In this document: positions 5,591 through 38,532 of the stretch, piece by piece | How the letters are laid out: each line of letters begins with the position of its first letter | Position numbering within the stretch: position 1 is the first letter of the stretch | Source of the DNA: Afipia sp. GAS231 | GTDB lineage: Bacteria > Pseudomonadota > Alphaproteobacteria > Rhizobiales > Xanthobacteraceae | Length of the DNA stretch: 64,000 nucleotides | Direction of reading: 5' to 3' | Assembly: GCF_900103365.1 (NCBI RefSeq) | Contig: NZ_LT629703.1 | Span: 6,310,501 to 6,374,500, forward strand | Translations under genes and position numbers: made by a program | The notes under the pieces: generated by a model | The model's database searches: none | What the model was told of the DNA's origin: nothing | What the model saw: only the letters and a program-made list of their open reading frames with translations

Positions 5591-6817
5591 ATGACCACCA
5601 CCGACATCAACGCCGACATCAGCGCCAGCGCCAATCGCACCGGCGTCTATCTCGCCGTGCTGCAACTGGTGTTCACGCTGGGCTGGACCACCTATGTCAT
5701 TTATCTGCCGAAACTCGCTGGCTTGGTCGGGATCGCGCCGGGCACCGTCATTCTGATCCTGATGCTGGATCAGGCGGTTTTCACCATCAGCGATACCGCC
5801 ATGGGCATTGCCGCCGACAGGATCGCGGGGCTGTTCGGCCGGATCGGCTTGTTCGTGGGTGTCCTGACCGCGATTTCCTGCGCGGCGTTCGTCGCGCTGC
5901 CGTTCGTCGCCGGCACCGGTCCGGGCGGACAGGTCTGGCTCATCGTTCTGATCGTGATCTGGGCCGTTACCTCGTCGGCGCTGCGCGCACCGCCGCTGAC
6001 ACTGCTGGGAAAGTACGGCGCACGGCCGCGGATTCCGTTCCTGGCGGCGCTGGCGATGCTGGGTTACGGGCTTGCGGGCGCGGTGTCGCCCTATCTCGGC
6101 GTGGTGCTGCGCGACCAGGATCCGCGGCTTCCGTTTTTGATCTCCGGCGCGGTGCTGCTGATCACGACGCTGGCGCTGTCGAAGGTCGAGCGCGGAGCGG
6201 CGCAGGATTCCGTTGCGTCTGAACCGGCCGTATCAGCCAAACCGCTCGGCCGGATACCGATCGTGTTCATCGCCTCGATGGTGATTCTTTCGCTCGGTTC
6301 CCAGTTGCATTTCAGCATCAACAGCGCGCCGTTCTTCCTGCGCTTTGCCAAGCCCGAGCAGCTGCAGTGGCTGCTGCCGGTGTTCTGGATCGGATTCAAT
6401 ATCGCGATGTTTCCGGCCAGCACCGTCGTCAAGCATCGTGGCGGGCTGTTCGTGATTGGGGCTGCCGGTTTGCTCGGCGCGATTGCAGCGTTGGGCGCGG
6501 AGCTCGCCGTCAACCTGAACATGCTGATCGCAGCCCAGTTCGTCGCGGGTGCGGCGTGGGGCTGCATGCTGATGGCCGCGGTCTCGGCGGCGCTGGCGAT
6601 CGGGGAAAACGGCACCGAAGGCAAGCTGGTGGGGCTGGTATTTTCAGCGTTGGCGCTGGCGACGTTTGCGCGGATGGCGGCGGTGGCCGGCGGCTTGCAG
6701 AAGCTACCGGAATACGCACCGCTGTTGCAGTGGGCGCCGGTAGCGTGCTGGTCGGTCGCCGGCGCCGGGTTGCTGGTGATCGCAGCATCCCGGGCGCAGC
6801 GCAAGTTGGCGGTCTAG
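5591..6817 (+). CDS. Major facilitator superfamily transporter
   Basis: This 408-residue, strongly hydrophobic protein has about twelve membrane segments, from VYLAVLQLVFTLGWTTYVIYL at the N-terminus to VACWSVAGAGLLVIAAS at the C-terminus, with a hydrophilic central loop near residues 195-215. Length and layout fit an inner-membrane MFS carrier. No signature identifies the substrate. It stands alone, and its stop overlaps by 4 bp the stop of the convergent ThDP-enzyme gene, leaving no room for a terminator between them. Confidence 0.8.
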   Translation: MTTTDINADISASANRTGVYLAVLQLVFTLGWTTYVIYLPKLAGLVGIAPGTVILILMLDQAVFTISDTAMGIAADRIAGLFGRIGLFVGVLTAISCAAFVALPFVAGTGPGGQVWLIVLIVIWAVTSSALRAPPLTLLGKYGARPRIPFLAALAMLGYGLAGAVSPYLGVVLRDQDPRLPFLISGAVLLITTLALSKVERGAAQDSVASEPAVSAKPLGRIPIVFIASMVILSLGSQLHFSINSAPFFLRFAKPEQLQWLLPVFWIGFNIAMFPASTVVKHRGGLFVIGAAGLLGAIAALGAELAVNLNMLIAAQFVAGAAWGCMLMAAVSAALAIGENGTEGKLVGLVFSALALATFARMAAVAGGLQKLPEYAPLLQWAPVACWSVAGAGLLVIAASRAQRKLAV

Positions 6818-8442
6818 TTGTTCTTCGCCGGGTGAATGAACTCCCACGGAGTGACTTCCGAATCCGTCGGCACCTCGATCGCGATCACATAAGGCCCGCC
6901 ATCGGCCAGCGCCTTTTCCAGCGCGGGGCGGAAATGATCGGGCGAGGTGACGCGCGCAGCACCGACGCCGAAGGATTCCGCCAGCTTGACGAAATCGGGA
7001 TTGACGAGATCGGAGGCGACCACGCGGCCTTCGAAGCGCTGCACCTGGTCGCGGCGCACATTGCCATAGGCGTTGTTGTTGAAGATCAGCGTCACCACGC
7101 CGATCTTGAACTGCACGGCGGTCGCCAATTCCTGCACCGCGAACATGAAGCCGCCGTCGCCGGTTATCGCGACCACCGGCCGCTCCGGATTGGCGACCTT
7201 GGCGCCGAGCGCGGTAGGGAAGCCGGAGCCGAGCGTGCCCTGATAGCCCGAGGTGATGAAGGTGCGCGGCTGGTAGATCGGAAAGCCGTACCAGGAGGCG
7301 AAGCCGACCTGCGACAATTCGTCGGTGACGATCGCATTGGCCGGCAGCACTTCGCGCAGGATATTCAGATACGCCATCTGCGGCTGGATTTTTTGAATCT
7401 CCACATGCGAAGCAGCAGTCGCCTCACGGATCGCGGCGCGCCGGCCGCTGATCTTGCTGTAGCCAGCCTTCGTCACGGCGGCGGCGAGCTCGGCCGTGCC
7501 GGCCTTGGCATCGGCGATCACGGCGCAATCCGGCGTGTAGCGCCGCATCTCGACCGGATCGATGTCGATGCGGACAGATTTCAGGCCGTCGGGGCGATAG
7601 GGCCAGCGCGACATCGTCGGCAGTTCCAGCCGCGTGCCGATGCCGATCATCAGATCGGTGGTCGGCCACAGTTTGTAGGCTGCCGCCATGGTCAACCCGA
7701 GTTCATGGGCATTGGAAACGATGCCGCGACCGCTGCGGAACGCCACGACAGGTGCGTCGATCATTTCCGCCAGTTCGAGGATTTCCTCGGCCGCGTCAAT
7801 GGCGCCGCTGCCGACAAAGATCATCGGCGCCTTGCTTCCCTTGACCAGCGCCGCGGCGGCCTTGATGCGATCGGGATCGGGCTTCGGCGCCGGAAACAGG
7901 TCGAACGGCGTTGCCGGGCCGACTTCCGCGCGCTGGGTGAACACGTCCCACGGCATTTCCAGCGACACCGGGCCGCGCCGCCCGGACAGCATCTCCTGGA
8001 ACGCGCGCGACACCATCGCCGGCGCGACATCCGGATATTCGATTCTGTCGGCCCATTTCACAAACGTCTTCAGCGTTGCCAACTGGTCCGGCATTTCGTG
8101 CAGATGGCCGCGGCCCTTGCCGAGAAATTGCGTCGGCACCTGGCCGGTCAGGCACAGCACCGGCTCGTTCGCTCCGAACGCCGTCAACAGCGCGGCGCCG
8201 GCGTTGAGCACGCCGGGGCCGGGCACGACGCTGAACACGCCGGGCTTGCCGGTCGAGCGCGCGTACCCATAGGCCATGTAGCCGCAGGCCTGCTCATGCC
8301 GCGCGCCGATCACCTTGAGCTGCGCCTGATGGAAGGCGTCGAACAGGCCGTAGATCTGTGCGCCGGGCAGGCCGAACACGGTTTCGACGCCATGCGCGAC
8401 GAGGCCATTGACGATTGCTTCGCCGCCGGAAGTTGAAGTCAT
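6814..8442 (-). CDS. Thiamine diphosphate-dependent enzyme (acetolactate synthase-like)
   Basis: This 542-residue protein has the three-domain layout of ThDP decarboxylases and carboligases: a PYR domain with catalytic Glu50 (GARHEQACGYMAYG), a central domain and a C-terminal PP domain with the ThDP/Mg motif GDGGFMFAVQEL...NNNAYGN. It is not a biosynthetic acetolactate synthase by context, as no small subunit is nearby. It is the last gene of the homoprotocatechuate operon, so it may act on a 2-oxo acid produced there or feeding it, such as an aryl-pyruvate. That is inference. ATG 8442 (MTSTSGGEA) is preferred to a TTG four codons earlier. Confidence 0.85.
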   Translation of the reverse strand: MTSTSGGEAIVNGLVAHGVETVFGLPGAQIYGLFDAFHQAQLKVIGARHEQACGYMAYGYARSTGKPGVFSVVPGPGVLNAGAALLTAFGANEPVLCLTGQVPTQFLGKGRGHLHEMPDQLATLKTFVKWADRIEYPDVAPAMVSRAFQEMLSGRRGPVSLEMPWDVFTQRAEVGPATPFDLFPAPKPDPDRIKAAAALVKGSKAPMIFVGSGAIDAAEEILELAEMIDAPVVAFRSGRGIVSNAHELGLTMAAAYKLWPTTDLMIGIGTRLELPTMSRWPYRPDGLKSVRIDIDPVEMRRYTPDCAVIADAKAGTAELAAAVTKAGYSKISGRRAAIREATAASHVEIQKIQPQMAYLNILREVLPANAIVTDELSQVGFASWYGFPIYQPRTFITSGYQGTLGSGFPTALGAKVANPERPVVAITGDGGFMFAVQELATAVQFKIGVVTLIFNNNAYGNVRRDQVQRFEGRVVASDLVNPDFVKLAESFGVGAARVTSPDHFRPALEKALADGGPYVIAIEVPTDSEVTPWEFIHPAKNN

Positions 8443-22377: not shown

Positions 22378-25300
22378 GTGTCGATCTTCGTCGCGCTACA
22401 TCACGTTACGCACTACAAATACGACCGTCCGATCGATCTCGGCCCGCAAACCATTCGCCTGCGCCCGGCGCCGCATACGCGGACACCGATCCTGAGCTAT
22501 TCGCTCAAGGTCACCCCGGCAAACCATTTCGTGAACTGGCAGCAGGACCCGCAAGGCAACTGGCTGGCGCGGTTCGTGTTTCCGGAGAAGGCCACCGAGC
22601 TCAAGATCGAGGTCGATTTCACCGCGCAGATGACCGTGGTCAATCCGTTCGACTTCTTTGTCGAGGGTTACGCGTCAAGCTTTCCATTCCAGTACACCAG
22701 CGATCTCAAGACCGAGCTGGCGCCCTATCTGGCGACATCGGACCAGGGGCCGAAGTTCGCGGATTACCTGAAGGACATTCCGCGCGAGGCCGACAGCACC
22801 GTCGACTTCCTGGTCGCGCTCAACGCGCAACTGCAGAAAAAGATCAGTTACGTCATCCGGATGGAGCCGGGCATTCAGACGCCGGAAGAGACGCTGTCCA
22901 GCGGTTCCGGATCGTGCCGCGACTCGGCGTGGCTGTTGATCCACATCTTCCGTCACCTCGGGCTCGCCGCGCGTTTCGTCTCAGGCTATCTGATCCAGTT
23001 GCGGCCCGACATCGATCCGGTCGAAGGTCCGCGCGAGGTCGAAAGCGATTTCACCGACCTGCATGCCTGGGCCGAGGTCTACCTGCCGGGCGCGGGCTGG
23101 ATCGGGTTCGACGTCACCTCGGGGATGCTGACCGGTGAGGGCCACATTCCGGTTGCCGCCACGCCGCACTACCGTTCGGCGGCGCCGATCTCGGGCACCG
23201 CCGGTTTTGCCGAGGTCGAGTTTGCGTTCGACATGAGCGTCAAGCGCATCCGCGAGGCGCCGCGGATCACCCGGCCGTTCTCCGACGAATCCTGGGCGCG
23301 CCTTGACAGTCTTGGCGAGCAGGTCGATGCCGATCTCAAGGCCGAAGACGTCCGCCTGACCATGGGCGGCGAGCCGACGTTCGTCTCGATCGACGATCTG
23401 GAATCGCCGGAGTGGAATATCGCCGCCGTCGGTCCGACCAAGCGGGCTTTGGCCGACGAGCTCATTCGCAAACTGCACGCGCGTTTCGCGCCGGGCGGAC
23501 TGCTGCATTACGGCCAGGGCAAATGGTATCCCGGCGAAACCCTGCCGCGCTGGGCGTTCGGGCTCTACTGGCGCAAGGACGGCGTGCCGATCTGGAAGAA
23601 TTCCGATCTGATCGCCAAAGTTGATAGCCCGGGCGAGGCTGACGTCGACGACGCCGAATGGCTGACGAAAGGCATCGCAAAACGGCTCGGCCTCGGCCCT
23701 GAATACGTGATGCCGGCCTATGAAGATCCCGTGCACTGGCTGCAAAAGGAAGCAGCCCTGCCGGTCAATGTCGATCCCAGCGATTCCAGGCTTGCCGACG
23801 CGGAAGAGCGCGCACGCATGGCGCGGGAGTTCGACCGGGGGCTGACGACGCCGAGGGGGTTTGTGCTGCCGGTACAGCGCGTGGACGCAGCCGCCGCGGA
23901 TTGGATGAGCGAGCACTGGCAGTTGCGGCGCAGCCATCTGTTTCTGGTGCCCGGCGATTCCCCGCTCGGCCTGCGGCTGCCGATCGGCTCGCTGCCGTAT
24001 ATCGCGCCGGAAGACTATCCCTACATCGTCGAGCGCGATCCGATGGAGCCGCGGCTGGAACTCGCGGTCGAGGACAAGGACGCCGAGATCGGCGACGCGA
24101 CACCGAAGCGGCTGCAGCCGAAGCGCAGGGTCACCCCGGTGCGCACCGCGATGTCGGTCGAAATCCGCGACGGCGTGTTGTGCGTGTTCATGCCGCCGGT
24201 CGAGAAGGTCGAGGACTATCTGGCGCTGATCGCGGTGGTCGAAGCCACCGCCGAGGAAATGCAGGTCCGGGTGAACATCGAGGGTTATTCGCCGCCTTAC
24301 GATCCGCGCGTCGAGGTGATCAAGGTGACGCCCGATCCCGGCGTGATCGAGGTCAACGTCCAGCCGGCGCAGAGCTGGCGCGAGGCGGTCGATATCACCT
24401 TCGGCCTCTATGAAGACGCTGCGAAGACGCGCCTCGGCGCCAACCGCTTTCTGGTCGACGGCCGCCACACCGGCACCGGCGGCGGCAACCATGTCGTGGT
24501 CGGTGGCAGTACGCCGGAAGCTTCGCCGTTCCTGCGCCGTCCCGATTTGCTCAGGAGTCTCGTGCTGTACTGGCAGCGCCATCCGTCGCTGTCCTATCTA
24601 TTCTCCGGCATGTTCATCGGCCCGACCAGCCAGGCGCCGCGCCTCGACGAAGCGCGGCATGACGGCCTCTATGAACTGGAAGTCGCGCTCACCCATGTGC
24701 CGCCGGCGGGGCTGCAGGCGCCGCTATGGCTGGTCGACCGGCTGTTCCGTCACATCCTGGTCGACATCACCGGCAATACCCACCGCGCCGAAATCTGCAT
24801 CGACAAGCTCTATTCGCCCGACGGCCCGACCGGCCGTCTCGGGCTGGTCGAATTCCGCGCGCTCGAAATGCCGCCCGATCCCAGGATGTCGCTGGCGCAG
24901 CAATTGCTGATCCGCGCGCTGATTGCAAAGCTCTGGCGCGAACCGCAACAGGGCAAGTTCGTGCGCTGGGGCACCACGCTGCATGACCGCTTCATGCTGC
25001 CGCATTTCCTCTGGGAGGATTTTCTCGGCGTCCTCGCAGAGCTCCGGCAGTCCGGTTACGATTTCTCGCCGGAATGGTATGCGGCCCAGCTCGAATTTCG
25101 TTTTCCGGTGTTCGGCCGCGTCCATCATGGCGGCGTGGCGCTGGAGCTGCGTCAGGCGCTGGAGCCCTGGCATGTGCTCGGCGAAGAGGGCTCGGCGGGC
25201 GGCACGGTGCGCTATGTCGATAGTTCGGTGGAGCGGCTGCAGATCAAGGCGGAAGGTTTCGTCGAGGGCCGCCATGTCGTGACCTGCAATGGCCGGCGGA

Positions 25301-25650
25301 TGCCGATGACCGCGACCGGGCGCTCCGGCGAGGCGGTGGCGGCCGTCCGGTTCAAGGCCTGGCAGCCGGCGTCGGGCCTGCATCCGACCATTCCGGTGCA
25401 CGCACCGCTGACATTTGACCTGATCGACACCTGGAACGGCCGTTCGCTCGGCGGCTGCGTCTATCACGTCGCCCATCCCGGCGGCCGCAGCTACGACACC
25501 AAGCCGGTCAATTCCTACGAGGCGGAAGCCAGGCGGCTGGCCCGCTTTCAGGATCACGGCCATAGCCCGGGCAGGATCGATCCGCCGCCGGAGGAACGTA
25601 CAATTGAGTTCCCTTTGACCCTCGACTTGAGGACGCCGCTCCTGCATTGA
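22378..25650 (+). CDS. Transglutaminase-like / DUF2126 protein
   Basis: This 1090-residue protein has an N-terminal bacterial transglutaminase-like domain (about 1-265) with the papain-type triad Cys180 ([11 protein letters not shown]), His229 ([11 protein letters not shown]) and Asp245 (WIGFDVTSG). The remaining ~800 residues match DUF2126, containing [33 protein letters not shown] and [12 protein letters not shown]. No signal peptide is seen. Proteins of this architecture (COG1305 plus COG4196) occur with the ATP-grasp/alpha-E gene that follows and are predicted to handle peptide or isopeptide bonds. The start is GTG; an ATG alternative is not evident. Confidence 0.9.
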
Positions 25651-25800
25651 TTGGCTTGACGTTTTCTTGAGGTTTCTTGGCGTTTCCGGGCAACGGCGCC
25701 CGCCCCGGACAGATCCGGGGATGAGCTTAAGAAAACGCGTCAAAGACATAAAATCGGGACCTCGAATCTGATCTTGTCAGAGGCGAGGGCGGGAATTGAA

Positions 25801-28356
25801 ATGGCGGGACAGGCCGGCCAAGGCAGCAATCAAGGCAACAATCAGGAAAGCAAGGCACGTCCGGGCCAGCGCCGGATGGCGCAGTGGACCCGCGACTATG
25901 CCCGGCTGCCCGGAATTCCTGACGAATATATCGGCCAGGACGGGGCGCCCCGCGCCGCCTGGACCCGGTTTTTCGATGCCTTTGCCGCGCTGGCGCCGGC
26001 CGACATCGAAAAACGTTTTGCATCCGCCGACCGGCATCTGCGCGAAGCCGGCGTTACCTACCGCGCGCCGGGCGAGACCGCCGACCGGTTGTGGCCGCTC
26101 AGCCACCTGCCGCTGATCATCGACGAAACCGACTGGCAGCAGTTGAGTGCCGGCATCGCGCAACGCGCGCAGCTTCTCGAAATGGTATTGCGCGATCTCT
26201 ACGGTGAAGGCCGTCTGGTCGCGGACGGTGCGATCCCCGCCGCCGCCATCGCCGGCAGCAACGAATATCTGCGCGCGGTGTGCGGCGTCAAACCGCCGGG
26301 CGGCCGCTATCTGCATCTCTATGCCGCCGATGTCGGCCGCGGCCCCGACGGGCGCTGGTGGGTGCTGGGCGACCGCACGCAGGCGCCGTCGGGCGCCGGC
26401 TACGCGCTGGAAAATCGCCTGGTGCTGTCGCGCGCCTTTTCCAACCTCTACAAGTCGATGAACGTCGAACGCGTGGCGCCGTTCTTCGAGGCGTTTCGCG
26501 AGTCGCTTCGATCGGGCGCCGATCGCGACGAGCCGCGGATCGGTTTGCTGACGCCGGGCGCCTTCAGCGAAACCTATTTCGAGCATGCCACGCTGGCGCG
26601 TTATCTCGGCTTCCTGCTGGTCGAAGGCGACGATCTCGCCGTCAGCGGCGACCGCATCCATATTCGCACCGTCGCCGGTTTGAAGCGGCTCGACGTGCTG
26701 CTGCGCCGGGTCGATTCCAACTTTCTCGATCCGCTCGAGCTCGATGCGTCCTCGCATCTCGGCGTGCCCGGCCTGATCGACGTGGTGCGCAAAAACGGCG
26801 TGGTCGTCGCCAACATGCCGGGTTCGGGCGTGCTGGAGGCGAGGGCGCTATTGGGCTTCCTGCCGAGTCTCAGCCGGCGTTTCCTCGGCGAAGACCTCAA
26901 GATGCCGCACATCGCGACCTGGTGGTGCGGCCAGAAATCCGCGCGCGAGGAAGTGCTGGACCGGCTCGATGATTTCGCAATTGAAGGCGCCTACAGCCGC
27001 TCGGTTCCGGGCTTTCCGGGCCACGGTCCGGTGCTGGCCGGCGAGTTGTCGCCGACGGATCGCGACCGGCTCAAAAGCGCGATCGCCGACCGCGGCATCG
27101 ATTATGTCGGCCAGGAGCTGGTGCGGCTGTCGACGACGCCGGTGTGGGAAAACGGTCGGATCACGCCGCGCCCGTTCGTGCTGCGGGTGTTTGCCGCGGC
27201 GACCCCGCAAGGCTGGACCATCCTGCCCGGCGGCTTCTGCCGGATCGCGGAGCAGCCCGATGCCCGCGCCGTGTCGATGGGCGACGGCGCGCGTTCCGCG
27301 GATGTCTGGGTTGTGTCCGACAAGGCGGTTGCCACCTCGACGCTGTTGCCGGCGGCAGACACCGTGCGGATCAAGCGGATCGCCGGCGTCGTTCCCAGCC
27401 GCGCCGCCGACAACCTGTTCTGGCTCGGCCGCTATCTCGAGCGCGCCGAGGCGACGCTGCGGCTGATCCGCGCGCTCGGCGTGCCGACGCGTGATCCGGC
27501 CAAAGGAACGTCAACCGGAACGTCGGGCGGGCCGGCCACGGCGCTGCCTTCGGTCGAGCGCATTCAACGGCTGCTGGTGACCTGGGGCGCGACCTCGCAG
27601 GCGACGCGCGCGAACCCTGCAAAGGTCGTCGCCGAGGCCTTGCAAAATCCGGAGAAATTCGGCTCGGCGTTGTCGTTGCTCAAATCGGCGCAGCGCACCG
27701 CGACCTCGTTGCGGGAGCGGCTTTCGCCGGACGCCTGGCAGGTCATCACCGAGATGACGGAACGTCTTGCCTTGCAGGTCGATGACGACGACGCGGTGGT
27801 CAGCGCTGCTGAACTGACGTTGCAGGAGCTGGCGAGCTTTGCCGGTCTGGCCCAGGAGAACATGAACCGCGCCGCCGGCTGGCGCTTCCTCGAAATGGGC
27901 CGCCGCATCGAGCGCGCCATCAATACCGCGCGGTTCGCCCGGCAGTTCGGTTATGACGAGGCTGGCGACGAGGATCTCGACGTGCTGCTGACGCTGGTGG
28001 ACTGCCAGATCACCTATCGCTCGCGCTACCTGGTCGGTCCGGCGCTGGCGCCGGTGCGCGATCTCGCGGTGCTCGACCCTTATAACCCGCGCTCGGTGGC
28101 GTTTCAGGTCGCGGCGCTCAACGAGCACATTGCGAGCCTTCCGAGCCTCAAGGAGCACGGCCTGATCGAGCGGCCGCAACGCCTTGCGGTGGCGCTGCAG
28201 GCCATGCTGACGACGTCGGAAGCCTCGGCGCTCGATATCAAGGCGCTGTTCGCGCTGGAGCAGGACCTGCTCAACCTCGCCGACGCCATCGGCCTGCACT
28301 ATTTCCCGCACGGACCCAATGCGAGCCGGCCGGAGAAGCTCACGGGCCTCGCGTGA
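25801..28356 (+). CDS. Circularly permuted ATP-grasp fused to alpha-E domain
   Basis: This 851-residue protein fuses a circularly permuted type 2 ATP-grasp domain (about 20-500, COG2308) to an alpha-E helical domain (about 528-835, COG2307). The ATP-grasp part is predicted to form amide bonds at the expense of ATP. Landmarks are WWVLGDRTQAPSGAGYALENR and GFCRIAEQPDA in the ligase, and VPSRAADNLFWLGRYLERAE at the start of alpha-E. In many genomes these are separate genes, so the fusion is a useful marker. An upstream TTG (25774) is possible, but ATG 25801 is preferred. The stop overlaps the next gene by 4 bp (GTGA). Confidence 0.9.
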   Translation: MAGQAGQGSNQGNNQESKARPGQRRMAQWTRDYARLPGIPDEYIGQDGAPRAAWTRFFDAFAALAPADIEKRFASADRHLREAGVTYRAPGETADRLWPLSHLPLIIDETDWQQLSAGIAQRAQLLEMVLRDLYGEGRLVADGAIPAAAIAGSNEYLRAVCGVKPPGGRYLHLYAADVGRGPDGRWWVLGDRTQAPSGAGYALENRLVLSRAFSNLYKSMNVERVAPFFEAFRESLRSGADRDEPRIGLLTPGAFSETYFEHATLARYLGFLLVEGDDLAVSGDRIHIRTVAGLKRLDVLLRRVDSNFLDPLELDASSHLGVPGLIDVVRKNGVVVANMPGSGVLEARALLGFLPSLSRRFLGEDLKMPHIATWWCGQKSAREEVLDRLDDFAIEGAYSRSVPGFPGHGPVLAGELSPTDRDRLKSAIADRGIDYVGQELVRLSTTPVWENGRITPRPFVLRVFAAATPQGWTILPGGFCRIAEQPDARAVSMGDGARSADVWVVSDKAVATSTLLPAADTVRIKRIAGVVPSRAADNLFWLGRYLERAEATLRLIRALGVPTRDPAKGTSTGTSGGPATALPSVERIQRLLVTWGATSQATRANPAKVVAEALQNPEKFGSALSLLKSAQRTATSLRERLSPDAWQVITEMTERLALQVDDDDAVVSAAELTLQELASFAGLAQENMNRAAGWRFLEMGRRIERAINTARFARQFGYDEAGDEDLDVLLTLVDCQITYRSRYLVGPALAPVRDLAVLDPYNPRSVAFQVAALNEHIASLPSLKEHGLIERPQRLAVALQAMLTTSEASALDIKALFALEQDLLNLADAIGLHYFPHGPNASRPEKLTGLA

Positions 28357-29231
28357 TCTACGACATCCGTCATGTCACGACCTACGCTTACGAAAGCCCG
28401 GTGAGCTTTGCGCGCTGCTCGCTGCGGCTGGAACCGCGAACCGGCGACGGGCAGCAACTGGTCTCGCACTCAGTCGAGATCCGGCCGCGGCCGGTGGAAC
28501 GCACCGCGCGGCGTGATTTTTTCGGCACCCACACCGAGAGCGTGCTGATCGAGACCGCGCATCGCACGCTGCGGATCGATTCCCGTTCGCGGGTACAGGT
28601 CGCGCGGCAGGTGCTGGAACGCACCGCGCCGAGCCCGGCATGGGAGGACGTCCGCGACGTCGCGTTCGAGGCCACCAGCCTCGGCCCGTCCTCGCCGGTC
28701 GGCTATGTCTTTGCCAGTTCGCTGGTGCCGGTGCAGGCGCCGGTCACCGCCTATGCCGCGGCGAGCTTTCCGCCGGGCTGCGGGGTCGTCGCAGGCTCAG
28801 TCGACCTGATGCACCGGATCCGCACCGAGTTCAGATACGACCCCAAGGCGACCGTGATCTCGACGCCGCTGGCCGAAGTGTTCGAGAAACGCCACGGCGT
28901 CTGCCAGGATTTTGCCCATGTGATGATCGCGGGCCTGCGCGGGCTCGGACTGCCGGCGGCCTATGTCAGCGGCTATCTGCGTACCATCCCGCCGCCGGGC
29001 CAGCCGCGTCTGCAGGGCGCCGACGCCACCCACGCCTGGGTGTCGGTGTGGTGCGGCGCCGAGATCGGCTGGATCGGTTTCGATCCGACCAACGATCTCC
29101 TGGTCGGGAACGATCACATCATTCTGGCGATCGGGCGCGACTTTTCCGACGTCTCGCCGGTCGACGGCATCATCGTCGGTTCGCGCAAGCAGAAGCTTAG
29201 CGTCGCCGTGGACGTGCTGCTGGTGGAGTGA
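28353..29231 (+). CDS. Transglutaminase-like cysteine protease family protein
   Basis: This 292-residue protein has an N-terminal beta-sandwich region (MIYDIRHVTTYAYESPVSFARCSLRLEPR) and a transglutaminase-like core with Cys184 (RHGVCQDFAH), His228 (DATHAWVSVW) and Asp244 (WIGFDPTNDLL). Bacterial members are usually proteases or peptide-bond-modifying enzymes rather than true crosslinkers. It is translationally coupled to the ATP-grasp/alpha-E gene through a GTGA overlap. It thus provides a second bond-cleaving activity alongside a bond-forming one. Confidence 0.9.
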   Translation: MIYDIRHVTTYAYESPVSFARCSLRLEPRTGDGQQLVSHSVEIRPRPVERTARRDFFGTHTESVLIETAHRTLRIDSRSRVQVARQVLERTAPSPAWEDVRDVAFEATSLGPSSPVGYVFASSLVPVQAPVTAYAAASFPPGCGVVAGSVDLMHRIRTEFRYDPKATVISTPLAEVFEKRHGVCQDFAHVMIAGLRGLGLPAAYVSGYLRTIPPPGQPRLQGADATHAWVSVWCGAEIGWIGFDPTNDLLVGNDHIILAIGRDFSDVSPVDGIIVGSRKQKLSVAVDVLLVE

Positions 29232-31346: not shown

Positions 31347-32729
31347 ATGGTCTACCGCCAAGCCATCGATGCCACTTCTTATCTGTTCGATGATTTGCGC
31401 GACCTGCTTGCCAAGGCGACGCCGCCGCGCTCCGGCGATCGCCTTGCGGGGATTGCGGCCGACAGCGCCGAACGGATGATCGCGGCGCGGATGGCACTCG
31501 CCAATGTTCCGCTCAAGCAATTTCTCAATGAGGCCGTCGTGCCTTACGAGGACGACGAGGTTACCCGCCTGATCATGGATAGCCATGATGCCCAGGCCTT
31601 TGCCGCGATATCGTCGCTGACGGTCGGGGGCTTCCGCAACTGGCTGTTGTCCGATGCCGCCACGGCTGAGGCGTTACAAAAAGTCGCGCGCGGGGTCACG
31701 CCGGAAATGGCCGCGGCGGTCTCGAAGCTGATGCGCAACCAGGATCTGATCCTGGTCGCCAAAAAATGCGCGGTGACATCCGCCTTTCGCAACACCATCG
31801 GCTTGCGCGGGCGGATGAGCGTGCGGCTGCAGCCCAATCATCCCTTTGACGACACCAAGGGCATTACCGCCTCGATCCTCGACGGCATCCTGTTGGGATC
31901 GGGCGATGCCTGCATCGGGATCAATCCGGCGAGCGACGACCCGGCCGTGATCGGCGGCCTGTTGCGGCTGCTGGACGGGGTCATTTCGCGGCTGCAGATC
32001 CCGACGCAGGCTTGCGTTCTCACCCATGTCACCACCACGCTCGGCCTGATCGGCCAAGGTTTTCCGGTCGACCTGGTGTTCCAGTCGATTGCGGGAACGG
32101 AAGCCGCCAACCGCAGCTTTGGTGTCGATCTCGTACTCCTGAAGGAGGCGCGGGAGGCCGGGCTGTCGCTCCGCCGCGGCACCGTCGGCAACAACGTCAT
32201 GTATTTCGAAACCGGGCAGGGCTCGGCGCTGTCAGCCAATGCCCACCACGGGGTCGATCAGCAGACCTGCGAAGCGCGGGCCTATGCGGTGGCGCGCGCC
32301 TTCGATCCGTTGCTGGTCAACAGCGTCGTCGGCTTCATCGGCCCCGAATATCTCTACGACGGCAAGGAGATCATCCGGGCCGGGCTGGAGGATCACTTTT
32401 GCGGCAAGTTGCTCGGGCTGCCGCTCGGTGTCGATGTCTGCTACACCAACCATGCCGAGGCCGACCAGGACGACATGGACAATCTGCTGACGCTATTGGC
32501 CGCCGCCGGCGTGACCTTCATCATGGGGGTGCCGGGCGCCGACGACGTCATGCTGAACTATCAGTCCACCTCGTTCCATGATGCGCTCTATGTCCGCGAC
32601 CTCTTTGGCCTGAAACGGGCGCCGGAGTTCGACGACTGGCTGCATCGAACCGGCCTGGCTGGCGCTGACTTCCGAATTGCGGGCAATGCGGGTCTGCTGC
32701 CCGAATTTGCCTCACGGCTGATCGCTTGA
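31347..32729 (+). CDS. eutB: Ethanolamine ammonia-lyase large subunit
   Basis: The large subunit of the adenosylcobalamin-dependent enzyme converts ethanolamine to acetaldehyde and ammonia. The 460-residue length and blocks such as KLMRNQDLILVAKKC, RLQPNHPFDDTKGI, GDACIGINPASD, FQSIAGTEAANRSFG and GVDVCYTNHAEADQDDMDNL match EutB throughout. ATG 31347 is the family start, though the frame is open to 31092. Its partner eutC is displaced by 1.77 kb because hpnP lies between them. No microcompartment shell genes are present, so this is the simple cytosolic type of system. Confidence 0.95.
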   Translation: MVYRQAIDATSYLFDDLRDLLAKATPPRSGDRLAGIAADSAERMIAARMALANVPLKQFLNEAVVPYEDDEVTRLIMDSHDAQAFAAISSLTVGGFRNWLLSDAATAEALQKVARGVTPEMAAAVSKLMRNQDLILVAKKCAVTSAFRNTIGLRGRMSVRLQPNHPFDDTKGITASILDGILLGSGDACIGINPASDDPAVIGGLLRLLDGVISRLQIPTQACVLTHVTTTLGLIGQGFPVDLVFQSIAGTEAANRSFGVDLVLLKEAREAGLSLRRGTVGNNVMYFETGQGSALSANAHHGVDQQTCEARAYAVARAFDPLLVNSVVGFIGPEYLYDGKEIIRAGLEDHFCGKLLGLPLGVDVCYTNHAEADQDDMDNLLTLLAAAGVTFIMGVPGADDVMLNYQSTSFHDALYVRDLFGLKRAPEFDDWLHRTGLAGADFRIAGNAGLLPEFASRLIA

Positions 32730-32894
32730 GGGCCGCCTGGGGGCAACGAACGGCGGGTTTTCATGCAACCTTTGAACCGCCGGCGCGTTTGAGACGACTG
32801 CCACAATGTTGAAGAATTTCTGGCCCAACTTTCAATGTCGTGCTTAGATTTGCCAAAGCTCTGGTTTGCTAAGGCGTTGGCTGAGGAAGTTTGA

Positions 32895-34484
32895 ATGAGA
32901 GCTGAAGGCATTGAGACGGTTCGGCGCATCCTGTGTGTCTTTCCGCGCTATACGTCTTCTTTTGGTACGTTCGAACACGCCTATCCCCTGACAGACGGCG
33001 TCCAGGCGTTCATGCCGCCGCAGGGGCTGCTGCTGATCGCGGCCTATCTGCCGGCCAACTGGCCGGTGCGTTTCATCGACGAGAACATTCGCCCGGCGAC
33101 GAAAGAAGACTTCGAATGGGCGGAGGCGGTGTTCGTCAGCGGCATGCACATCCAGCGCCAGCAGATGAACGACATCTGCCGCCGCGCACATGCGTTCGAT
33201 CTTTCGGTTGCGATCGGCGGGCCGTCGGTGAGCGCATGCCCGGATTACTACCCCTCGTTCGATTATCTCCATGTCGGCGAACTCGGCGATGCCACCAATG
33301 AGCTGTTCGCGCGGCTGGCGCACGATCCGTCGCGCCCCGAACAGCAGGTGGTGCTGAAAACCGTCGATCGCGTGGCGATGACGGATTTCCCGATTCCCGC
33401 GTACGAACTCGCCGAGGTCAAGAAATACTTCCTCGGCAGCATCCAGTATTCGAGCGGCTGTCCCTACCAGTGCGAGTTCTGCGACATCCCCGGCCTCTAT
33501 GGCCGCAACCCGCGGCTGAAATCGCCGGAACAGATCATCGCCGAGCTCGACAAGTTGCGCGAATGCGGCGTCACTGGCTCGGTGTATTTCGTCGACGACA
33601 ATTTCATCGGCAACCGCAAGGCGGCGCTGGATCTGCTGCCGCACCTGGTCGAATGGCAGAAGCGGACCGGTTACGTGATGCGGCTCGCCTGCGAGGCGAC
33701 GCTTAACATCGCCAAGCGGCCCGAGATTCTGGAAAAGATGCGCGATGCCTTCTTCGTCACGATCTTTTGCGGCATCGAGACGCCGGATCCCGAGGCACTG
33801 AAGGCGATGCACAAGGACCACAACATGATGGTCCCGATCCTGGAAGGCGTTCACACCATCAATTCCTACGGCATGGAAGTCGTCTCCGGCATCATCATGG
33901 GGCTCGACACCGACAAGCCGGAAACCGGCGACGCGCTGCTGGCGTTCGTCGACGAATCGCAGATCCCGCTGTTGACGATCAATCTGCTGCAGGCGCTGCC
34001 GAAGACGCCGCTGTGGGATCGGCTGGAGCGCGAAGGCCGTCTGCTCGAGGAAGACGAAAGCCGCGACTCCAATGTCGCGTTCCTGTTGCCCTATGATCAG
34101 GTGGTCGATTCGTGGCGTAAATGCATGGCAGTCGCCTATGCGCCGGAGAAGCTGTTCGCGCGCTACCAGTATCAGTGCGACTACACCTATGCGCGGCGGT
34201 TGAAGGTGCCGGTAACCCCCGAGCAGAAGAGCTGGGCCAACATCAAGCGCGCCTTAATCATGCTCCGGAACATTTTCTGGAAGGTCGGTGTGCTCGGCGA
34301 TTACAGGAAGGTGTTCTGGAAATTCGCGCTGGGACGGCTGCGGCACGGCGACATCGAGGGGCTGATCGCGTCGTCCATGATCGCGCATCACCTGATCATG
34401 TTCGCACGCGCGGCGTCGGTCGGTCAGCAGAGCGCATCGAACTATTCGATCCGGCTGCGCGAGGCCTCGGTCCCGGCCGAGTAG
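32895..34484 (+). CDS. hpnP: Hopanoid C-2 methylase, B12-binding radical SAM
   Basis: HpnP methylates hopanoids at C-2, giving 2-methylhopanoids. This 529-residue protein has an N-terminal cobalamin-binding-like domain (about 10-150, RRILCVFPRYTSSFGTFEHAYP, PPQGLLLIAAYLP, VAIGGPSVSACPDYYP). The radical SAM core carries Cys189, Cys193 and Cys196 (CPYQCEFC) for the 4Fe-4S cluster, followed by a long C-terminal region. A GAGGAAG ribosome-binding site precedes the ATG. It is 165 bp after eutB and 18 bp before eutC, so it is likely co-transcribed at least with eutC. HpnR (C-3 methylase) is the alternative, but the sequence pattern and locus fit HpnP. Confidence 0.87.
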   Translation: MRAEGIETVRRILCVFPRYTSSFGTFEHAYPLTDGVQAFMPPQGLLLIAAYLPANWPVRFIDENIRPATKEDFEWAEAVFVSGMHIQRQQMNDICRRAHAFDLSVAIGGPSVSACPDYYPSFDYLHVGELGDATNELFARLAHDPSRPEQQVVLKTVDRVAMTDFPIPAYELAEVKKYFLGSIQYSSGCPYQCEFCDIPGLYGRNPRLKSPEQIIAELDKLRECGVTGSVYFVDDNFIGNRKAALDLLPHLVEWQKRTGYVMRLACEATLNIAKRPEILEKMRDAFFVTIFCGIETPDPEALKAMHKDHNMMVPILEGVHTINSYGMEVVSGIIMGLDTDKPETGDALLAFVDESQIPLLTINLLQALPKTPLWDRLEREGRLLEEDESRDSNVAFLLPYDQVVDSWRKCMAVAYAPEKLFARYQYQCDYTYARRLKVPVTPEQKSWANIKRALIMLRNIFWKVGVLGDYRKVFWKFALGRLRHGDIEGLIASSMIAHHLIMFARAASVGQQSASNYSIRLREASVPAE

Positions 34485-34502
34485 CAAACCCTGGAAACCG
34501 TC

Positions 34503-35312
34503 ATGAAAACGCCGGCGCCGCCTTCCGGTTCGATTGCGCCCGTTTCGATTGAACCAGTTTCGATTGAACGTTTGCGCGAGTTGACGCCGGCCCGCGTCGC
34601 GCTCGGACGGGCAGGGGCGAGCATGCCGACCGAGGCGTTGCTCGCTTTCACGCTCGACCACGCACGCGCCCGCGATGCCGTCCATGCCGCCTTCGATGCC
34701 TCGCGCCTGATGGCGGAACTGGCCGGCCTTGGCCTGAACGCGCTTGAGGTCTCGAGCCAGGCGCGCGACCGGCGCGACTATCTGCGCCGTCCCGACCTCG
34801 GCCGCATGCTCGATGCCGGATCGCGGCGTTCGCTGGCCGACCGTAGCGGCGCTCGCTGCGAGCTTGCCGTCGTCATCGGCGACGGCCTGTCGCCGGCTGC
34901 GGTCAACCTTCACGCGGTCGAACTGGTTCGCAATCTTGCTGCACGGCTGGCGGAGGCCGGCATCGGAGTAGGCGCGGTCGTGGTTGCGTCGGGCGCGCGC
35001 GTGGCGCTGGGCGACGAGATCGGTGCTGTGCTCGGCGCGCGCATGGTGGTGATGTTGATCGGCGAGCGGCCAGGCATGTCGGCGCCGGACAGTCTCGGGG
35101 CCTATCTGACGTTCGGACCGCGCATCGGCCTGACCGACGCCGAACGCAATTGCATCTCCAACATCCACGGCGCCGGCCTGAGTTACGATGAAGCCGCGTT
35201 CAAAATCGCGTGGCTGGTTCGTGAAGGGCTCGCGCGGCAACTCACCGGCGTCGCGTTAAAGGACGAAAGCGCAGGACTGCCGGTGCAGATCGCGGCCGAT
35301 CCGGCCCTGTGA
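34503..35312 (+). CDS. eutC: Ethanolamine ammonia-lyase small subunit
   Basis: This 269-residue protein matches Eut[99 protein letters not shown]. With EutB it forms the active enzyme and contributes to cobalamin binding. The first 25 residues contain a short repeated SIEPVSIE element absent from the core family. It lies 18 bp after hpnP and is the last gene of the eutB-hpnP-eutC group. Confidence 0.95.
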
Positions 35313-35544
35313 GTGGCCCGGGTGTGACAAATCAGAGACTTAACGCGGATTTTCGTCATCTGCGTGCCGATTTGCACCACCTCGCGCGCTTGCCGGATCG
35401 GGTTCGGACCTGTAAAACGGCGACGTTAATTTACCGCGTGATTTCAAGGGCTAGCGCCGATCAGACACGGCTGAAAAAGCCGCTATTGCGCCACCGACCC
35501 AAGCAAGCTTCACAACCGACACCGACGTGAGAACTGGACAGGGT

Positions 35545-37923
35545 ATGCTCGACAAGAATTCCGAAAGTCAGGTCCACGTCGCAGCGATCGAGGAGCCGGT
35601 AAAGGGTACGAGCATCGCCTTTGGGCTGGAGCGCCTCGGCCTGATCGCGGTCAAGGCGCCGATCATGTCCTGCGTCGTTCTCGTCGCACTGATGATTGCC
35701 GCGTTCTTCGGGATCGAGCGGATCAAGATCGACGACTCGCTGAGCCAGCTGTTTCGCTCCAATTCCAAGGACTACAAGCAATACGAGGCCGTGACCAAGC
35801 GCTTCCCGGCGACCGAATTCGACGTGCTCGTCGTGGTCGAAGGCAAGACGCTGCTGGCGCGCGAAAACCTCGAAAAGCTCCGCGACATGGTCACCGACCT
35901 GCAACTGGTCGACGGCGTGCGCGGTCTGGTCTCGCTGTTCTCGGCACGCCAGGCGCCGGAACCCGGCAAACTGCCGGCGGCGCTGTTCCCGTCGGAACTG
36001 CCGGAAGGCGCGGCCTACGACAAGTTCGCCGAGACCGTGAAGGCAAACGAGATCATCCGCGGCAAGCTGTTGTCGGAAGACGGCACGCTGGCGCTGATCG
36101 TGCTGTCGCTGGAGCCGAACATCGTCGCCAGCAACGACCTCACCAAGGCGATCGGCGATATCAGAAAAATCATGGCGGAAGATCTCGCCGGCAGCGGGCT
36201 CAATGCCCAGCTCTCCGGCGTCCCCGTTATGCAGCTCGAAATTCGCAACGCGGTGAAGCGCGACGGGCTGACCTACAACATCCTCGGCATTCTGGCCGGC
36301 TGCATCATCGCGATCATCTTCTTCCGCAAGATCTCGTTCATGGTCGTCGCCGCGTTCCCGCCGATCATCGCGATCCTGCTCGCGCTCGGCGGCCTCGGCT
36401 GGGCCAACTTCAATCTGAACATGTTCCTGAACGTGATGACGCCGCTCATCATGGTGATCAGCTTCTCCGATTCGATGCAGCTCACATTCGCGGCGCGCGA
36501 CCGCCTGATCGCGGGCCAGGACAAGTACACCGCGTTCAAGAACGCCGTGCTGGTGGTCGGTCCGGCCTGCGTGCTCACCCACGGCACTGCCGGCATCTCG
36601 TTCATCGCCCTGCAGTTCTCCGATTCCGAACTGATCCGCAAATTCGGCGAGGCGGGCCTTGCCGCCACCATCATTGCGCTGGTCGCGGTGCTGTCGCTGG
36701 TGCCGGTGTTCGGCGTGCTGTTCGTGCGCAATGAAAAGGTCATGGCGGTCAAGTTCCAGGGCGCCGACGCCGGCGTGCAGGCGCTGCGCAACTTCTGCTA
36801 CTGGATCGCGGTGCGGATGGTCGGCCGCCCCGGGCTGTTCAGCCTGATCGCGGTGCTCGTCGTCGCCAGCATGGGTTTCGTCTACGCCAACCTGCAGCCG
36901 CGCTACCGGCTGGCCGACCAGGTGCCGGACAAGCGGCAGGCGGTGGCGGCGTCGAGCCGTCTCGATGCCAAGCTCACCGGCGCCAATCCGGTCGACGTCC
37001 TGATCGAATTCCCTAAGGGTGCCTCGCTCTACGCGCCGGAGACGCTGAAGACGATCGCCGACGTCCATTCCATGGTCGAAACCGCGGCCGGCGTCGGCAA
37101 CGTCTGGTCGCTGGAAACGCTGCGGCGCTGGCTTGCCGAGAAGGCGGGCAGCAATGACGTCGCGACGCTGAAGGAATATGTTAGCGTGATCCCCGAACAT
37201 CTGGTGCGGCGCTTCATCTCGGCCGATCAGGATGCGGTGGTGGTGTCGGGCCGCGTCCCCGATATCGATTCCAGCGCGCTGCTTCCGGTGGTGAACAAGC
37301 TCGATGCCGGGCTCGACAAGGTTCGCGCCGAACATCCGGGCTATGAAATCGCGGTCACCGGCCTTTCTGTGATCGCCGCGCGCAACAGCTCCAACATGAT
37401 CGAGAAGCTCAACCGCGGCCTGACGGTGGAATTCCTGCTGGTCGCGGTCTTCATCGGGCTGGCGTTCCGCTCGGTCGTGGTGATGTTCTCCTGCATCCTG
37501 CCCGGCATTTTCCCGGTGGTGGCATCGGGGACGGTGCTGGCGATCATGGGTGAGGGCTTGCAATTCGCCAGCGTGGTGGCGCTGACGGTGTCGTTCGGCC
37601 TCGGCCTCAGTGCGACGATCCACTTCCTCAACCGGCTGCGGCTGGAGCGAAAGCCTGGCGTCAGTGCGGATCTGGCGGTGGAGCGTGCGACCGTGCTGGT
37701 CGGTCCGGCGCTGATCCTGACCACGGTGGTGCTGGCCTGCGGCCTGGTGGTGACGGTGTTCTCCGACCTGCCGTCGCTGCGCCTGTTCGGCTGGCTCAGC
37801 GCGTTCTCGATGATCGCGGCCCTGGTCGCCGACCTGTTCATCCTGCGGCCGACCTCGATGTTCCTGATCAACCTGTCGGAAAAGATCCGCGGCACCGCGG
37901 GTCAGGCGAAGCCGGCGGAGTGA
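35545..37923 (+). CDS. MMPL/RND-family transporter (HpnN-like paralogue)
   Basis: This 792-residue inner-membrane protein has the repeated RND layout of the HAE3/MMPL group: TM1 near residue 30, a large periplasmic loop with FPATEFDVLVVVEGK, and a TM2-6 bundle (YNILGILAGCIIAIIFF...ISFSDSMQLTFAARDRL). A second half repeats this, ending VADLFILRPTSMFLINL. It resembles HpnN, encoded 12 kb away, and sits between hpnP-eutC and the hopanoid operon, so lipid or hopanoid export is plausible but not shown. ATG 35545 is preferred over GTG 35527. A hairpin terminator follows. Confidence 0.85.
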   Translation: MLDKNSESQVHVAAIEEPVKGTSIAFGLERLGLIAVKAPIMSCVVLVALMIAAFFGIERIKIDDSLSQLFRSNSKDYKQYEAVTKRFPATEFDVLVVVEGKTLLARENLEKLRDMVTDLQLVDGVRGLVSLFSARQAPEPGKLPAALFPSELPEGAAYDKFAETVKANEIIRGKLLSEDGTLALIVLSLEPNIVASNDLTKAIGDIRKIMAEDLAGSGLNAQLSGVPVMQLEIRNAVKRDGLTYNILGILAGCIIAIIFFRKISFMVVAAFPPIIAILLALGGLGWANFNLNMFLNVMTPLIMVISFSDSMQLTFAARDRLIAGQDKYTAFKNAVLVVGPACVLTHGTAGISFIALQFSDSELIRKFGEAGLAATIIALVAVLSLVPVFGVLFVRNEKVMAVKFQGADAGVQALRNFCYWIAVRMVGRPGLFSLIAVLVVASMGFVYANLQPRYRLADQVPDKRQAVAASSRLDAKLTGANPVDVLIEFPKGASLYAPETLKTIADVHSMVETAAGVGNVWSLETLRRWLAEKAGSNDVATLKEYVSVIPEHLVRRFISADQDAVVVSGRVPDIDSSALLPVVNKLDAGLDKVRAEHPGYEIAVTGLSVIAARNSSNMIEKLNRGLTVEFLLVAVFIGLAFRSVVVMFSCILPGIFPVVASGTVLAIMGEGLQFASVVALTVSFGLGLSATIHFLNRLRLERKPGVSADLAVERATVLVGPALILTTVVLACGLVVTVFSDLPSLRLFGWLSAFSMIAALVADLFILRPTSMFLINLSEKIRGTAGQAKPAE

Positions 37924-38028: not shown

Positions 38029-38532
38029 TCAGGTCTTCGTCATCGTGATCTTGACGCCGCGGATTTCGCCCTTCGAGTCGATCTGGACCACCTGCTTGTT
38101 GCCGCTGGTCCGCAAATTCAGGTTGGCTGCGAATCCGGAAGCCTCGACGAACACGTCGATCTGGCCGCCGCCCGCGGTGCCCTGCAGGTTGCCGAAGATA
38201 TTGCGGCTCTTCTCGCTCCAGTTGCCGGAGATACGGTCGCCCTGGCTGGTAACGTCGCTGGAGAGATCGAACTTGTAGCTGTCGCTGGCGCAATGCAGGT
38301 TCTGCTTCAGGCCGAGGCCGGAGGCATTGACCTTGTAGTCGGCCTTGCAGCGGATGTTTTCGGTGGTGCCGTTGGAAAGCGCGACCGTGCCCGCGCCGCT
38401 CCAATTTCCGTCAAAACCGGCAAAGGGGCCGCTCGCCTGGGCGTGGCTTGCGCTGATCGACAACATGAGCGCGGCGCCCACGCCAGCCGCTGTGAGTGCC
38501 TGACCGAACAAGCTGGAACCGAACAGTTTCAT
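38029..38532 (-). CDS. Small secreted protein of unknown function
   Basis: This 167-residue protein has a clear Sec signal peptide (about 1-32, QALTAAGVGAALMLSISASHAQA). A mature part follows (FDGNWSGAGTVALSNGTTENIRCKADYKVNASG...) with alternating polar and hydrophobic residues that suggest a beta-sandwich or lipocalin-like fold. Two cysteines (in IRCKADY and LHCASDS) could form a disulphide. It has no recognised catalytic motif. Convergent with the transporter upstream and divergent from the Cys-rich gene. Similar small periplasmic proteins are common in Bradyrhizobium, but no function is assigned. Confidence 0.75.
   Translation of the reverse strand: MKLFGSSLFGQALTAAGVGAALMLSISASHAQASGPFAGFDGNWSGAGTVALSNGTTENIRCKADYKVNASGLGLKQNLHCASDSYKFDLSSDVTSQGDRISGNWSEKSRNIFGNLQGTAGGGQIDVFVEASGFAANLNLRTSGNKQVVQIDSKGEIRGVKITMTKT

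Follow-up and report, generated by a model that had tools for sequence, protein, structure and literature searches.

The hopanoid methylase gene hpnP nested between eutB and eutC: an old, widespread gene order joining two functions that look separable

The window analysed here is a 64,000-nucleotide stretch of DNA from Afipia sp. GAS231 (contig NZ_LT629703.1, positions 6,310,501 to 6,374,500), in which hpnP, the gene for a predicted hopanoid C-2 methylase, stands between eutB and eutC, the genes for the large and small subunits of ethanolamine ammonia-lyase (Table 1). The genome is a single contig of 7.58 Mb, and its nearest named relatives are Bradyrhizobium. All three genes are on the plus strand, with gaps of 165 bp between eutB and hpnP and 18 bp between hpnP and eutC; gene coordinates and gaps agree with those given by an earlier interpretation made from the letters alone (the sequence-only reading). 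The arrangement proved to be old and widespread, and the two jobs encoded in it look separable.

Table 1. Features of the eutB-hpnP-eutC locus (positions in the window)
Feature	Coordinates	Strand	Product or sequence	Basis or position
eutB	31347..32729	+	ethanolamine ammonia-lyase large subunit, 460 aa	NF011649, PF06751
Degenerate EcfG-type motif	32765..32789	+	GCAAC-N16-CGTT	130 bp before hpnP
Conserved element	32800..32829	+	GCCACAATnTTGArgAATTTcTGGCCCA	upstream of hpnP; sequence conservation
hpnP	32895..34484	+	predicted hopanoid C-2 methylase, 529 aa	B12-binding, radical SAM and DUF4070 domains
eutC	34503..35312	+	ethanolamine ammonia-lyase small subunit, 269 aa	NF003971, PF05985
Transporter gene	35527..37923	+	MMPL/RND-type transporter	domain and family models; first gene 3' of eutC

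Both subunits score above the curated cut-offs. EutB, the only EutB match in the genome, scored 702.5 bits with NF011649 (cut-off 554) and 707.7 bits with PF06751; EutC scored 318.5 bits with NF003971 (cut-off 230) and 303.8 bits with PF05985. The substrate site of EutB, which we take to consist of Arg160, Gln162, Asn193, Glu287 and Asp362 (E. coli numbers), is intact in all aligned sequences, both those encoded next to hpnP (hereafter linked; 55/55) and those encoded elsewhere (unlinked; 48/48). Relatives with solved structures are 2qez and 3abo.

In HpnP, the DUF4070 (114.4 bits) and radical SAM (61.6 bits) domains scored over their cut-offs, and the cysteine motif C189-x3-C-x2-C is present in all 112 aligned HpnPs (the window sequence is counted twice). 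The cobalamin-binding domain claimed by the sequence-only reading was recovered as a weak match (27.9 bits against a cut-off of 32.1); according to PMC10697835, B12 dependence of HpnP has been confirmed by experiment. The name ‘hopanoid C-2 methylase’ is given by a source for 27 (83–87% identical) of the 120 listed relatives, and about 27 of the same 120 are labelled only in general terms, as radical SAM enzyme YgiQ. Assignments to HpnJ (59.1 bits, cut-off 577.6) and to HpnR (52.5 bits, cut-off 650) were rejected. All three genes are under purifying selection: the ratio of nonsynonymous to synonymous substitution rates (dN/dS) was ∼0.04–0.24 in comparisons of the window with six relatives.

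The usual gene order is the one that the sequence-only reading had assumed, with the subunit genes adjacent: at 87 of the 90 eutB places without hpnP nearby, eutC lies within 182 bp of eutB. The order eutB-hpnP-eutC (the trio) was found in 76 of 80 named loci; these are the best 80 of 313 from a scan of named genomes, i.e. the nearest ones, and 73 of them are titled Bradyrhizobium. At two of the other four (L112 and L139) the contig ends after hpnP; at the last two, from strains BTAi1 (L162) and BRP22 (L123), both eut genes are lacking and hpnP is kept between the same neighbours. A record titled Frankia sp. RB7 (L166) carries a Bradyrhizobium-type locus (HpnP 83%), and its title looks wrong.

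In a set of 248 genomes of the family, the trio is present in 54 and split at contig ends in 2 more. The other genomes with hpnP have either no eut genes (49) or eut genes elsewhere (21); those without hpnP have adjacent eutBC (58), a lone eut match (3) or neither hpnP nor eut (61). Some of these absences may be assembly gaps, since 196 of the 248 genomes reach ≥90% completeness with ≤5% contamination. The trio spans eight genera. When only genomes that match hpnP or eut are counted, it occurs in every genome of genera g1 (17/17), g6 (2/2), g17 (2/2) and g46 (1/1) and in some of those of g28 (14/16), g26 (14/17, plus the 2 split cases), g20 (2/9) and g25 (2/15). Among 297 genomes sampled from the order, HpnP was detected at E ≤ 1e-150 in 21, of which 11 are outside the family; six of these 11 have EutB, none near hpnP. 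The placement of hpnP between the two subunit genes goes far beyond chance. Occurrence in one strain only, which the sequence-only reading had named as fatal to its proposal, is ruled out by the counts in named loci and family genomes.

The EutB tree comprised 103 sequences: 55 from the 56 linked genomes (the partial sequence of G164 was dropped) and 48 unlinked ones, drawn from the 90 eutB places without hpnP nearby. All 55 linked EutBs form one clade, with a support of 99 in the Shimodaira–Hasegawa-like approximate likelihood ratio test, apart from the 48 unlinked sequences, so that one change accounts for the linkage. The HpnP tree, built from 112 of the 126 HpnPs, mostly follows genera. 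Judged from these sequences, the trio is of one origin, followed by mainly vertical descent. A single gain would entail nine losses on the HpnP tree, or eight without g43, whose placement is unresolved; unordered parsimony on the same tree gives eight changes. Because eutC follows eutB so closely at nearly all unlinked places, entry of hpnP into a eutBC pair would be the simplest founding event.

Losses of the eut genes have been repeated and joint: eutB and eutC disappear together, and hpnP stays. A single eut gene beside hpnP was found in no hpnP genome, except for two cut at contig ends. In BRP22, tblastn detected the remnants of both genes around a whole hpnP, that of eutB before it (5698–5778, E 7e-6) and that of eutC after it (7620–7712, E 1e-6).

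The distance between hpnP and eutC is short. Measured from aligned starts in 76 named loci, its median is 6 bp, with 19 of the gene pairs overlapping; longer gaps occur in the family set in G180 (483 bp) and G067 (309 bp). As the start of eutC is close to or inside the end of hpnP, eutC probably rides on hpnP transcripts. A scan of 31.0–35.7 kb of the window found two sigma-70-type promoters and five terminators, against 1.1 and 4.3 in shuffled sequences; neither of the two inner gaps contained a terminator-like site. The gap between eutB and hpnP reaches 1670 bp in one g26 genome (G189; L185, 10674–13723), where the linked eutB lies in two overlapping frames; this is perhaps an insertion with decay in progress, and the same genome has a second, divergent eutBC.

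Two kinds of conserved sequence precede hpnP. The first is the motif GGAAC-N15-18-GTT, which we take to be the EcfG-type promoter consensus. In the 250 bp before hpnP, it was found in 65 of 111 genomes of the family, compared with 2 on the reverse strand and 1.7 in shuffles. Among linked genomes other than Bradyrhizobium, the motif is located before hpnP in 33 of 39 and before eutB in none of 37; for eutB, the counts are 0/53 over all linked genomes and 1/75 in named loci. It also precedes hpnP genes without linked eut genes (e.g. 8/8 in g40 and 7/7 in g20), and it was not found before hpnP in g10, g13, g43, g17 and g46. For Bradyrhizobium, we considered 97 rows (the 80 named loci and 17 g1 genomes, with at least four genomes counted twice); in 59 of them a degenerate form, GCAAC-N15-18-GTT, precedes hpnP. 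The window has the degenerate form, and the canonical consensus was not found before its hpnP.

The second is an element of ∼30 bp, counted as present when the first 20 bases had at most three mismatches. It was detected in 75 of 80 named loci and in genera g1 (16/17), g26 (16/16), g40 (8/8), g6 (2/2), g46 (1/1) and g20 (4/9), and is thus conserved in several genera, regardless of the presence of eut genes. Controls gave no matches upstream of eutB (0/53) and none in shuffles (0/1110); the window genome contains one exact copy and three places with three mismatches. The element is gone in BTAi1 and survives in BRP22; since it is still there although eutB is a ruin, it most likely serves hpnP. 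RNA structure in the element is weak (seven pairs with no compensatory changes in 10 sequences), and for this reason it more likely acts at the DNA level. A small open reading frame over the element was dropped on visual inspection, as its start and stop are not kept in alignments. The element is probably part of the hpnP promoter or operator.

The gene order, the single EutB clade, the joint losses, the distribution of motifs and the purifying selection lead us to favour, as the likely explanation, an ancient nested operon, entangled in transcription and separable in biochemistry. According to this explanation, hpnP would have landed once between eutB and eutC, at a site adjoining the hopanoid cluster. 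The host would have been an ancestor that Bradyrhizobium shares with at least seven related genera, to which the trio would have been handed down mainly vertically. Upstream control of hpnP would be its own: an EcfG-type general-stress motif in the sister genera, and in Bradyrhizobium a degenerate EcfG-type form plus a private conserved element, each presumed to act as promoter sequence. eutC would be read from the hpnP transcript, and perhaps co-translated with hpnP, across the short gap or overlap, with a contribution of any read-through out of eutB. Expression of eutC would be tied to that of hpnP, and hpnP may rise when eutB is on. HpnP and EutBC would act as separate enzymes, neither needing the other.

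Several observations weigh against a nested operon of this kind. The founding event itself was not seen, and the HpnP tree lacks resolution at its base; g43 and g45, which have no trio, fall within the linked set or on its border. Some rows of the same tree stand apart from their genus: G164 (linked, g20) clusters with G214 (g26), and two rows from g28 cluster with g46, which could reflect either transfer or taxonomy. Remnants of eut genes were found at just one of the 32 unlinked hpnP loci examined, that of BRP22. In Bradyrhizobium, the canonical GGAAC form is at background (2 of the 97 rows, none of the 17 g1 genomes), and stress control of hpnP there, hence in the window, is unproven. The conserved element is absent from g25 (0/14), g28 (0/15), g17 (0/2) and more distant genera. 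Finally, selection for co-expression is also compatible with the finding that the order is intact in each of the 17 g1 genomes.

Co-regulation under selection is what the foremost rival explanation invokes. Ethanolamine breakdown and hopanoid methylation would make up a functional module that responds to one signal (ethanolamine, membrane stress or B12), with the order maintained by selection for their co-regulation; we regard this as unlikely. Deep conservation of the order is in its favour, and so is the location of gaps >1 kb. In named loci, such gaps never occur inside the trio (0/78 and 0/76); they occur outside it, at 19 of 72 places before eutB and 5 of 76 after eutC (p = 1.3e-8 for inner versus outer gaps, the genomes being related and not independent). 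The ethanolamine supply can be read the same way. When gene coordinates were compared in 45 chosen genomes, 8 of 17 unlinked cases had a TIGR00908-type permease match no more than 1.7 kb from eutBC (four over the cut-off and four just under), against none of the 23 linked ones; one linked genome has such a match elsewhere (p = 0.0003; other transporters were not searched). In the window genome, no TIGR00908 permease scored over the cut-off. Use of internal ethanolamine from lipid turnover would fit this difference.

Other data speak against such a module: the eut genes were lost repeatedly and hpnP was kept, and across the 248 genomes hpnP and eut show no significant association in their occurrence (77/126 vs 61/122, p = 0.096, uncorrected for kinship). 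A B12 riboswitch as the shared signal was rejected, with no Rfam match at the gathering score between 20 and 64 kb of the window; in the loci of seven relatives, the one Rfam match is a Rhizobiales-2 small RNA (L201:1885-1987) located 4.7 kb before eutB. Moreover, the EcfG-type motif belongs to hpnP, not to eutB. A shared ethanolamine or B12 signal, as suggested by the sequence-only reading, was thus not borne out. It is quite doubtful, too, that the locus serves as a membrane-stress lipid module, in which EutBC without dedicated import would recycle phospholipid ethanolamine and HpnP would stiffen the membrane, with one cobalamin pool, co-translation of hpnP and eutC, and the private element upstream of hpnP.

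Spread of the trio between genera as a horizontally transferred cassette appears highly improbable. Its patchy occurrence in g20 and g25 and the grouping of G164 with G214 are what such transfer would produce; however, the HpnPs of linked G135, G123 and G229 each cluster with unlinked HpnPs from the same genus, which means that hpnP and eutBC did not move together in these cases, and the ruins in BRP22 point to loss. Least probable of all is a neutral accident without consequence for expression, with a promoter for each gene and no run-through transcripts: hpnP does have upstream signals of its own and survives eut loss, but with 18 bp between hpnP and eutC in the window, and overlaps of the two in named loci, a promoter of eutC's own could not fit outside hpnP, and the inner gaps are free of terminator-like sites. 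The other suggestion of the sequence-only reading, an accident retained in the lineage, came nearer the mark than a shared signal, although the lineage is eight genera deep and Bradyrhizobium insertions spare the inner gaps.

The trio sits at the edge of a hopanoid cluster, a location on which the sequence-only reading did not remark, with hpnC (39290), hpnD (40258) and further hopanoid genes downstream; the names hpnE, shc, hpnH and hpnN are our assignments, given from position and length only. The transporter gene next to eutC is not hpnN by score (65.8 bits, cut-off 751.85), and it is retained 3' of hpnP in many relatives, whether eut genes are present or not. A 167-aa protein without a Pfam match is encoded on the minus strand at 38029–38532; in many relatives, its gene and that of the transporter have stayed in place, with hpnP/eutC on one side and hpnC on the other. 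On the other side of the trio, positions 22378–29231 contain a run of large genes: a transglutaminase-like gene with DUF2126 (22378), a gene (25774) whose 860-aa product has no NCBIfam match, and another transglutaminase-like gene (28353).

2-Methylhopanes are ancient biomarkers, and the control of hpnP decides what the fossils mean. The order described here implies possible co-transcription of hpnP with a subunit gene of a B12-dependent catabolic enzyme in many members of one alphaproteobacterial family. A further implication is that Bradyrhizobium has altered a general-stress promoter motif that most trio-bearing relatives keep. Strains BTAi1 and BRP22, natural cases of eut loss, are ready controls. 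If they are confirmed, the novelties would be the coupling of expression, the stress promoter altered in Bradyrhizobium and the private element. A literature search for hpnP or hopanoids together with ethanolamine or its ammonia-lyase turned up no paper on the order, as judged by titles and the openings of abstracts; subscription journals were mostly outside its scope, and the order may be in print elsewhere.

Among known systems, the regulation of hpnP is best compared with Rhodopseudomonas palustris TIE-1. According to citing literature (PMC4337730, PMC11005386), a stress-responsive pathway controlling hpnP transcription was found in this strain, and the title of a paper listed there (Kulkarni et al. 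2013) names EcfG. The EcfG-type motif before hpnP in most relatives of several genera resembles this EcfG-regulated gene, whereas the Bradyrhizobium motif is degenerate. With the short eut operon of adjacent eutB and eutC, the trio shares the two subunits and the five substrate-site residues; it differs in having hpnP between the subunit genes, an EutB of a separate clade and, in the 23 linked genomes compared, no TIGR00908-type permease gene beside it. As in the hopanoid cluster, the trio is located upstream of the MMPL/RND gene, hpnC, hpnD and the genes that follow; here, however, hpnP, while close to the hpn genes, is wrapped by eut genes.

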